Made by a program: the position numbers and the translations under genes. Below the pieces are notes generated by a model. The model did not search any database. It had not been told where the DNA came from and saw only the letters and a list, made by a program, of their open reading frames with translations. Source: Methanobacteriota archaeon (GTDB lineage: Archaea; Thermoplasmatota; Poseidoniia; Poseidoniales; Thalassarchaeaceae). Taken from it: a stretch of 33,724 bases of DNA. The stretch is taken from NCBI GenBank assembly GCA_002713585.1, contig PATD01000031.1:35892-69615 (forward strand). The letters run 5' to 3'. Shown one piece after another: positions 3,910 to 5,118 of this stretch (position 1 is the stretch's first letter; each line of letters starts with the position of its first letter).

Positions 3910-3980
3910 AATTTAACAAATCTGCATCGGAAATAAGGGTTGTATAACGTTAATTTCCTTAGAAAAGTGCTGTTTTCTTG

Positions 3981-3993
3981 CAAAAGTTAATAG
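3981..3993 (+). promoter_or_regulatory. Archaeal BRE/TATA-like promoter for the candidate RNA
   Basis: The sequence CAAAAGTTAATAG resembles a purine-rich BRE followed by a TATA-like box (TTAATA). It lies about 25 nt upstream of about 4015, where the composition changes abruptly from AT-rich to G-rich and structured. That is the normal archaeal spacing from TATA box to transcription start. The surrounding 3910-4010 stretch is AT-rich and has no credible ORF. Confidence 0.45.
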
Positions 3994-4014
3994 ACGTCCC
4001 TTGCTTATGCTAAG

Positions 4015-4460
4015 TTACCGCTCCGGGGGAGTGGCGTGACGGGGCAACCTGTTGCGGGGACTCCGGTCCGGAACCGCGAACCTGAGCGGTTCCGATCACT
4101 CGGCAACGAGTGGACGGAAGGTCGATCATTCCGATGAGAGGCCTGGAGACGACGGCGAAGGGAAACCAACGCTGGAACGAATCGTGAAGCTACGGCAGAA
4201 CGAGGAGGACGCAACCAAACGCAGCAATGCGGAGGGGGCTCGCTCCAAATCCGGTATCCGGGAATGAACAGAGGGGAAACCCGAAGGGAATGAACGAGAG
4301 AGAGAGGAGAAGCAGGCAACTGCCGAACCAATCGACTGGAAAGACGACTGGAAATCGAAGGGCAACCGGAGAGGAACAGGAGTCAACCGCGGAGTTGAGC
4401 AGAGGGGGCGAAGTCCACCCGACGGAACCCCCTCTGCTCGCTCCCACCTGTCCTCTTGGA
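4015..4460 (+). ncRNA. Candidate structured non-coding RNA of about 440 nt, family not recognised
   Basis: This G/A-rich block has no protein-like reading frame: the overlapping short frames on both strands are low-complexity and lack recognisable folds. It contains many hairpins I can pair by eye. CGGAACCGC (4069-4077) pairs with GCGGTTCCG (4086-4094). CACTCG-GCAA-CGAGTG (4097-4112) and GCAG-GCAA-CTGC (4312-4323) are both GNRA-tetraloop hairpins. CGGAA (4115-4119) pairs with TTCCG (4129-4133). A 12-bp perfect stem joins 4397-4408 to 4428-4439. GGGAGT (4027-4032) can pair with GCTCCC (4440-4445), closing the two ends as in large folded RNAs. Sense is set to + because GNRA and GAAA-rich loops occur on that strand and a promoter-like element precedes it. 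The conserved cores of RNase P RNA and SRP RNA were looked for and not found. Boundaries are approximate. Confidence 0.6.
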
Positions 4461-4483
4461 CGATTGGAATCCTCATCTTCTGC

Positions 4484-4580: not shown

Positions 4581-5006
4581 CTACTTCAGCATCATTCGGA
4601 GCTCTTCAACCGAGCGCATTTCATCGAAGTAGATGGTTTCCAATGAATCGTAGAGTTCTTTGTCACCTAACGTTTCAATCATAGGTAGGATTTGCCCATA
4701 TGTTTCACTTGCTTTCATCTCAGTTTTGTAAGCCTCTTTCAGCATCTCAGTGTAATCCATTGTATGGATAATCTCAGTATCTGCTCGATCTGTAGTTGCT
4801 ACCCCATCCAATTTTACAATTGCAGCTCGGACAGCAGCAGCATGTGTGGTGGATTCCGTGACTTCTTCGGAAAAATGTGCAGAAAGTTGTAGTCTATGAA
4901 TCCCAGATACATAGGCAGAATAGTGCGCATACATCGCAATGGCACGTAATTCCCAAGCAAGTGCACCATTGAGCGCATCGATAATCCCTGAACGATTCAT
5001 TGTCAT
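4581..5006 (-). CDS. Ferritin-like four-helix-bundle protein (bacterioferritin-like, possibly divergent site)
   Basis: This is a small, all-helical protein of about 141 residues. The N-terminal helix DALNGALAWELRAIAMYAHYS strongly resembles bacterioferritin helix A, with Glu19 at the expected ligand position. Helix B carries Glu51 and His55, but the spacing is ExxxH rather than the usual ExxH. In the last helix, where the second ExxH is expected, the sequence reads DEMRSVEEL with no His. Iron storage or oxidation is therefore uncertain, and a role as a degenerate ferritin-like scaffold is possible. The open frame extends to an ATG at 5063, but a promoter-like motif lies inside that extension. 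The helix-A alignment also begins at the paired ATGs at 5006 and 5000, so I chose 5006. It diverges from the S15 lipoprotein gene. Confidence 0.7.
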   Translation of the reverse strand: MTMNRSGIIDALNGALAWELRAIAMYAHYSAYVSGIHRLQLSAHFSEEVTESTTHAAAVRAAIVKLDGVATTDRADTEIIHTMDYTEMLKEAYKTEMKASETYGQILPMIETLGDKELYDSLETIYFDEMRSVEELRMMLK

Positions 5007-5043
5007 CAGTTGTCGCTTAACACGGAATCGAATAAACCATTGG

Positions 5044-5055
5044 AATATACTGTTT
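5044..5055 (-). promoter_or_regulatory. BRE/TATA-like promoter of the ferritin-like gene
   Basis: On the minus strand this reads AAACAGTATATT, identical over 12 bases to the element at 6961-6972 ahead of another gene. It lies 38 nt upstream of the ATG at 5006, which would leave a short leader. Its position inside the longest open frame argues against the ATG at 5063. Confidence 0.5.
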
Positions 5056-5118
5056 TGACCCATATTGAATCGGTCTTACAGCCGGTAGGCTTGAAATCGA
5101 GGGGCTTGACCGCTAAAC

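Follow-up and report, generated by a model that had tools for sequence, protein, structure and literature searches.

A large structured RNA gene with a promoter of its own at a conserved locus in Poseidoniales archaea

Introduction

In the sunlit ocean, Marine Group II ranks among the commonest archaeal groups. The window analysed here, a stretch of 33,724 nucleotides from a genome of the Poseidoniales, contains one long segment without a protein gene. Between positions 3910 and 4580 (671 nt) neither strand holds an open reading frame of at least 126 aa, and the next-longest such gap in the window measures 58 nt. What this segment encodes is the question addressed here. A preliminary description had singled it out as the sole long gene-free stretch of the region, which these lengths confirm, and had proposed an orphan structured RNA with its own promoter. 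Comparison with Rfam, with orthologous regions, for covariation and for conserved reading frames all favours an RNA gene, and we regard the existence of such a gene as virtually certain. The RNA at this locus is conserved and folded, it has a promoter of its own, and its position in the genome is fixed.

Composition, fold and promoter

A composition scan gave a GC content of about 0.6 and an AT skew of up to +0.65 over approximately 4000-4450. The part from about 4012 to 4463 is rich in GC and purines and has sharp edges, and these steps in GC and AT skew bear out the earlier impression of a sharply bounded, purine-rich stretch. The minimum free energy of the whole stretch is -196.9 kcal/mol, compared with -161.3 +/- 5.5 for dinucleotide shuffles (n=100; z = -6.5), none of which folded as low. 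The RNA is placed at 4012-4463 on the plus strand on the basis of homology in nine of the ten genomes of the genus, the fold z-score of -6.5 and matches to covariance models of both ends; its ends are inferred, and the conserved core spans 4014-4448.

A BRE/TATA-like box, AAAAGTTAATAG, lies at 3982-3993 on the plus strand, about 25 nt 5' of the conserved RNA start (around 4014). Its counterpart in relatives reads GAAA(N)RTTTAT and the spacing is alike in all relatives compared, so that the promoter proposed earlier at this distance is upheld. Alignment of the promoters revealed a second, distal element with the family consensus ATTTCCAGTGnACTGC, of which the window has a degenerate copy (3952-3968, plus strand). 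The exact 16-mer occurs once per genome, solely at the promoter of the RNA, in 7 of 13 genomes searched; the remaining matches carry one or two mismatches, and the copy is weak in the genus of the window. The idea that this promoter is shared with other stable RNAs was dropped, as the distal element was not seen upstream of the RNase P RNA gene in the same genome.

Conserved ends and covariation

The 5' domain begins with hairpin P1 (CCGCUCC GGG GGAGUGG; 4018-4034, plus strand), which shows compensatory changes and in which 98.4% of the cells are paired. The preliminary description had paired 4027-4032 with 4440-4445 in a helix closing the two ends of the RNA. The two segments are indeed complementary, but comparison favours other partners for them: over 65 sequences, P1 (4018-4024/4028-4034) keeps 388 of 390 pairs and the end-closing helix 336 of 390, and at the 3' end CUCC (4441-4444) is nested with an invariant GGAG (4391-4394). 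As GGAG and CUCC never vary, this last pairing is supported by position and not by covariation. P1 is followed by hairpin P2 (4035-4056, plus strand), which is predicted by folding and shows compensatory changes in six of nine pairs across genera. Its loop is GCAA in the window and of the UUCG type in most relatives; MAFFT fails to align the loop in the genus of the window (g1) with that of other genera, which makes these counts conservative. Three more hairpins are predicted by folding on the plus strand between 4058 and 4112, namely one with a UCCG loop (4058-4069), an 8-bp stem (4070-4093) and one with a GCAA loop (4097-4112). Within the genus, a stem of this region changes from GGAACCGC/GCGGUUCC to GGAACUAC/GUGGUUCC.

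In the 3' domain (4377-4448, plus strand; covariance model R1), the invariant segments GCGGAG (4389-4394) and CUCCCA (4441-4446) flank a long covarying hairpin (4397-4439). The model matches the window with 71.4 bits and an E-value of 1.9e-14. In this domain 93.8% of the cells are paired, and 10 of 17 pairs show compensatory change; doubly changed cells number 42, whereas shuffles give 11.3, and shifted registers all fall far short. Just 3' of the domain lies a small hairpin, GUCC-UCUU-GGAC (4450-4461, plus strand). Similar short hairpins occur at this position in most genera, and judged by its sequence it is probably the 3' end of the RNA or a processing signal. In genus g3 (locus L107 of genome G031 and other genomes), several genomes have two copies of the 3' domain hairpin approximately 300-330 nt apart.

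The signal extends over the full length. Compensatory changes were found in 88 of 138 pairs for 32 sequences of the family (column-shuffled alignments: 20.4 +/- 3.4) and in 85 of 219 pairs for 14 sequences of genus g15 of the sister family (16.1 +/- 3.2). Because the full-length structures had been optimised on the very alignments used for this count, which are sequence-based, column shuffles served as the control. Covariation is thus very strong, both in the 3' domain and P1 and in the full-length alignments. All individual hairpins listed in the preliminary description are present as well, at 4070-4093, 4097-4112 and 4312-4323 (the latter two with GCAA loops) and at 4397-4408/4428-4439 (12 bp).

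A variable body

Between the two ends lies a variable, purine-rich body (4118-4303, plus strand), delimited by BLASTN pieces and inspection of the sequences, and followed by a further GCAA tetraloop hairpin that is visible in both sequence and fold (4312-4323, plus strand). The segment 4118-4303 is tandemly duplicated in G001, G006 and contig C38 of G003; in G001 and G006 the duplication adds about 225 nt to the RNA. In the RNA of G027, a 63-nt unit is repeated six times. The length of the RNA ranges over approximately 0.44-0.95 kb: the copy in the window has 436 nt, others reach 846 nt, and in g3 the distance up to the first 3' domain is about 935 nt. The ends of the RNA are conserved, and its body is variable and grows by duplication. 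Tetraloop hairpins are in excess. GNRA loops prevail in the genus of the window and UUCG-type loops in the sister family, and either kind is clearly more frequent than expected. Uracil is scarce and makes up 7-15% of the RNA in most of the window's family and up to 21% elsewhere. In genus g9 (L116, 714-1287), the six 63-nt purine-rich units in the body contain few pyrimidines, so that the unit can hardly pair with itself.

The composition of the RNA also bears on whether the minus strand might encode a protein instead. This strand is open over the whole length of the RNA in some genera (g7 and g9), because the plus strand is poor in U. The frame is broken in g1, g10, g15 and others, no reading frame is conserved across the relatives, the indels of the RNA are not multiples of three, and its pairs covary strongly. 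We give a minus-strand protein next to no credence.

Distribution and genomic place

A DNA search detected the RNA in nine of the ten genomes of the genus at 74-96% nucleotide identity, and a 22-nt core near the 5' end is identical in all nine. It was not found in the tenth genome, G007; the neighbouring genes are missing from that genome too, and its absence there is uninformative for this reason. Upstream of the RNA lies a beta-propeller gene that is conserved through the order. In contrast to the high identity of the RNA within the genus, the propeller protein of the window's genome is only about 40% identical to that of six other genomes of the genus. A gene-free stretch directly downstream of the propeller gene is also found in genera g2-g11 of the family and in g15, g17 and g22 of the sister family, and these stretches share the promoter, the 5' end and the 3' end of the RNA. 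It thus occupies the same place in 14 of the 25 sampled genera of the class, comprising every genus of the family and three genera of the sister family; the search for orthologous intergenic regions suggested earlier was in this way successful. We take the relatives that carry the RNA to be Marine Group II (Poseidoniales).

Two covariance models were built, R1 for the 3' domain and R2 for the 5' domain, with g11 and g22 left out of both. R1 located the RNA in 128 of the 293 genomes searched, covering 14 of the 25 genera of the class. Of the two genera left out, g22 was matched by R1, and g11 by both models, whose matches lie about 570 nt from each other at the syntenic locus. Over 390 genomes of the phylum (155 genera), R2 matches were confined to the two families of the order. 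In g12, g13 and g14 no copy of the RNA was found, and the propeller gene is closely followed by protein genes in the examples read; the RNA is apparently lacking in some genera of the sister family. Weak matches to R2 alone in g12, g13, g14 and g16 were discarded as homologues, and the best two of them (L181 and L182) look coding and were rejected by eye.

The RNA is single copy and does not form a repeat family. What look like second copies in G037 and G053 are fragments at contig ends, each with its own propeller gene, and are for this reason ascribed to another strain rather than to a paralogue. Assemblies often break at this locus, and in G004 a run of N stands at the 3' end. In G003, the two halves of the RNA lie on the ends of contigs C38 (L026) and C8 (L027) and resemble different species of the genus, which is probably an assembly chimera at a conserved locus, or else the result of recombination.

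The fixed neighbourhood raises the possibility of a cis-acting element, which might belong to the propeller gene as its 3' untranslated region or serve the next gene as a leader or riboswitch. Wherever the sequence extends far enough, the RNA indeed follows the propeller gene and runs in the same direction. However, the RNA is preceded at fixed spacing by a TATA box and a distal element of its own, and the propeller gene persists without it in other genera. A leader or riboswitch would lie in the 5' untranslated region of a co-directional gene, and here the downstream gene is convergent: the next gene (fumarase in most genomes, a ferritin-like gene in the window) points towards the RNA, which therefore cannot be its leader. 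A cis-acting role is accordingly very improbable. In the window itself the neighbourhood is rearranged, with fumarase upstream (39-1178) and the ferritin-like gene (4581-5063) in the place facing the RNA.

Relation to known RNA families

At gathering thresholds, Rfam gave no match for the window or for 11 orthologous loci, the OLE, ROOL and GOLLD families included. At E-values of up to 10, only sub-threshold chance matches appeared, mostly from microRNA models hitting a single stem. Divergence from a universal RNA (RNase P RNA, SRP RNA, rRNA or an intron) would fit the size and the GNRA hairpins, and such divergence does occur among large archaeal RNAs. Archaeal RNase P RNA (RF00373) and SRP RNA (RF01857) are likewise large, stable archaeal RNAs with genes of their own, but they bear no resemblance to the present RNA, and each is encoded elsewhere in the same genome (G000:C24:20612-20909 and G000:C23:24530-24838, respectively). 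Neither model matches the stretch, in agreement with the failure of the preliminary description to recognise these RNAs there, and the wider Rfam search at E up to 10 gave chance matches only. We consider this origin scarcely credible. As a sequence-and-structure family the RNA has no match in Rfam, and the term orphan holds with respect to databases only.

Possible mode of action

This single-copy RNA, which is larger than the RNase P RNA of its host and is contained in no RNA family database, has been kept with its promoter and its place across a family and part of the sister family, and must therefore do something worth keeping. The conserved ends, the dedicated promoter, the fixed place and the length-tolerant body together suggest that the terminal domains do the work and that the body is a spacer or arm. 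In the model that we propose, the RNA would be transcribed from about position 4012 of the window, and the conserved 5' and 3' domains would fold into a working core that may serve as a binding place for a protein or for a second copy of the RNA. The body, tetraloop hairpins strung on unpaired purines, could be a length-tolerant spacer or a multivalent arm that is free to duplicate. The role of the RNA would then be architectural, comparable to that of OLE, ROOL and GOLLD in bacteria and phages. Our best explanation as a whole is that Poseidoniales have an independent gene for a large, trans-acting non-coding RNA with a core-plus-spacer architecture; in our judgement it stands at about an even chance. 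For the architectural mode of action, which we propose from anatomy and by analogy, we would put the likelihood slightly short of even, and the body is so variable that it may lack a common function.

OLE, ROOL and GOLLD are large ornate RNAs that form homo-oligomers, and GOLLD and ROOL occur in phages (PMC12286853). The RNA described here is likewise several hundred nucleotides long, with a covariation-backed structure and no conserved ORF. GOLLD resembles it in being long (often >800 nt), in having one conserved and one less conserved region and in occurring in viruses; ROOL in its similar length (659 nt in one example) and ornate fold; and OLE in being large, ornate and poorly understood in function (PMC12286853). 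There are also clear differences. Homology to any of the three was not detectable with the Rfam models. GOLLD is carried by phages and prophages near tRNAs, ROOL by bacterial prophages and phages, and OLE by bacteria, whereas the present RNA is single-copy and chromosomal with fixed neighbours and only one viral relative seen. Its kinship to the large ornate RNAs is thus loose and descriptive. With it, archaea join the bacteria and phages in which a small number of large function-orphan RNAs is known.

The main mechanistic rival to the architectural model starts from the body rather than from the ends. Repeated purine motifs (GGA, GGACGMAAGGAA) might titrate an RNA-binding protein in the way that CsrB and RsmZ titrate CsrA. 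The body is purine-rich and U-poor, the 12-mer GGACGMAAGGAA occurs up to six times per RNA in g9 (0.0 expected), members of g4, g7, g8 and g11 have one copy or more, and the sixfold 63-nt unit of G027 would suit such a sponge. The 12-mer, the one motif tested, is not repeated throughout the family, as a CsrB-like RNA would lead one to expect: it is absent from the tested members of g1 (the genus of the window), g3, g5, g6 and the sister family, and cannot for this reason be a common function. Moreover, the strongest conservation is at the ends of the RNA and not in the repeats. The sponge reading is weakened by these results, and we judge it improbable.

Relation to Tan1

A further question concerns novelty and is compatible with the best explanation given above. 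Tan1 (Thalassoarchaea ncRNA 1) is an abundant 229-nt non-coding RNA of Marine Group II that ranked fifth in RNA-Seq of a Red Sea metatranscriptome; it has a complex predicted fold, was unknown to its authors, and is represented by six sequences, with five homologues 75-79% identical (PMC5069720). Tan1 might be a fragment of the present RNA. It derives from the same archaeal group and was likewise an unknown non-coding RNA to those who reported it (PMC5069720), and the first 229 nt of our RNA show 75-78% identity over approximately 224-232 nt between several genera. Against it stand the reported length, 229 nt compared with 0.44-0.95 kb, and the fact that the same identity range could equally fit another RNA. 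Judged by their descriptions, the two may well be the same, although we lean somewhat against it. Among the papers searched, no other one dealt with Tan1. If Tan1 is part of this RNA, its marine abundance has already been demonstrated, and the full length, distribution, synteny and structure are still new. With R1 and R2, the RNA can be searched for directly in metatranscriptomes.

A virus-borne 5' domain

A tailed-virus contig of 72 kb in IMG/VR (IMGVR_UViG_3300007514_000005; L238, 1515-1600) carries the TATA box, the spacer and the 5' hairpin of the RNA. Among its genes are those for a large terminase, a portal and a tape-measure protein. R2 matches this copy with 37.4 bits and an E-value of 2.5e-8 in 43 kb searched, a value that overstates the case, because a pattern search in a very large collection had singled out the contig. 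The copy is closest to genus g10 (79% identity over 53 nt), and about 500 nt without an obvious gene follow the hairpin. From its sequence, this is likely a virus-borne version of the RNA. The 3' domain was not found on the 72-kb contig and the fold z-score of the region is only -1.15, not better than shuffles, so that a viral RNA beyond the 5' domain remains a lead.

A viral copy of the 5' end provides a handle on function. The boldest account that we entertain is that this is the first ornate large RNA family of archaea, that it assembles, by itself or with protein, into an RNA-based particle, and that one or more tailed viruses have a version of their own with which to exploit or subvert it; we put this forward as a speculation that is rather unlikely to hold in full. 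A short motif (TTTGTAGC / GCTACAAA) is present in many copies scattered over the viral piece, at 1320-1510 of L238 and elsewhere.
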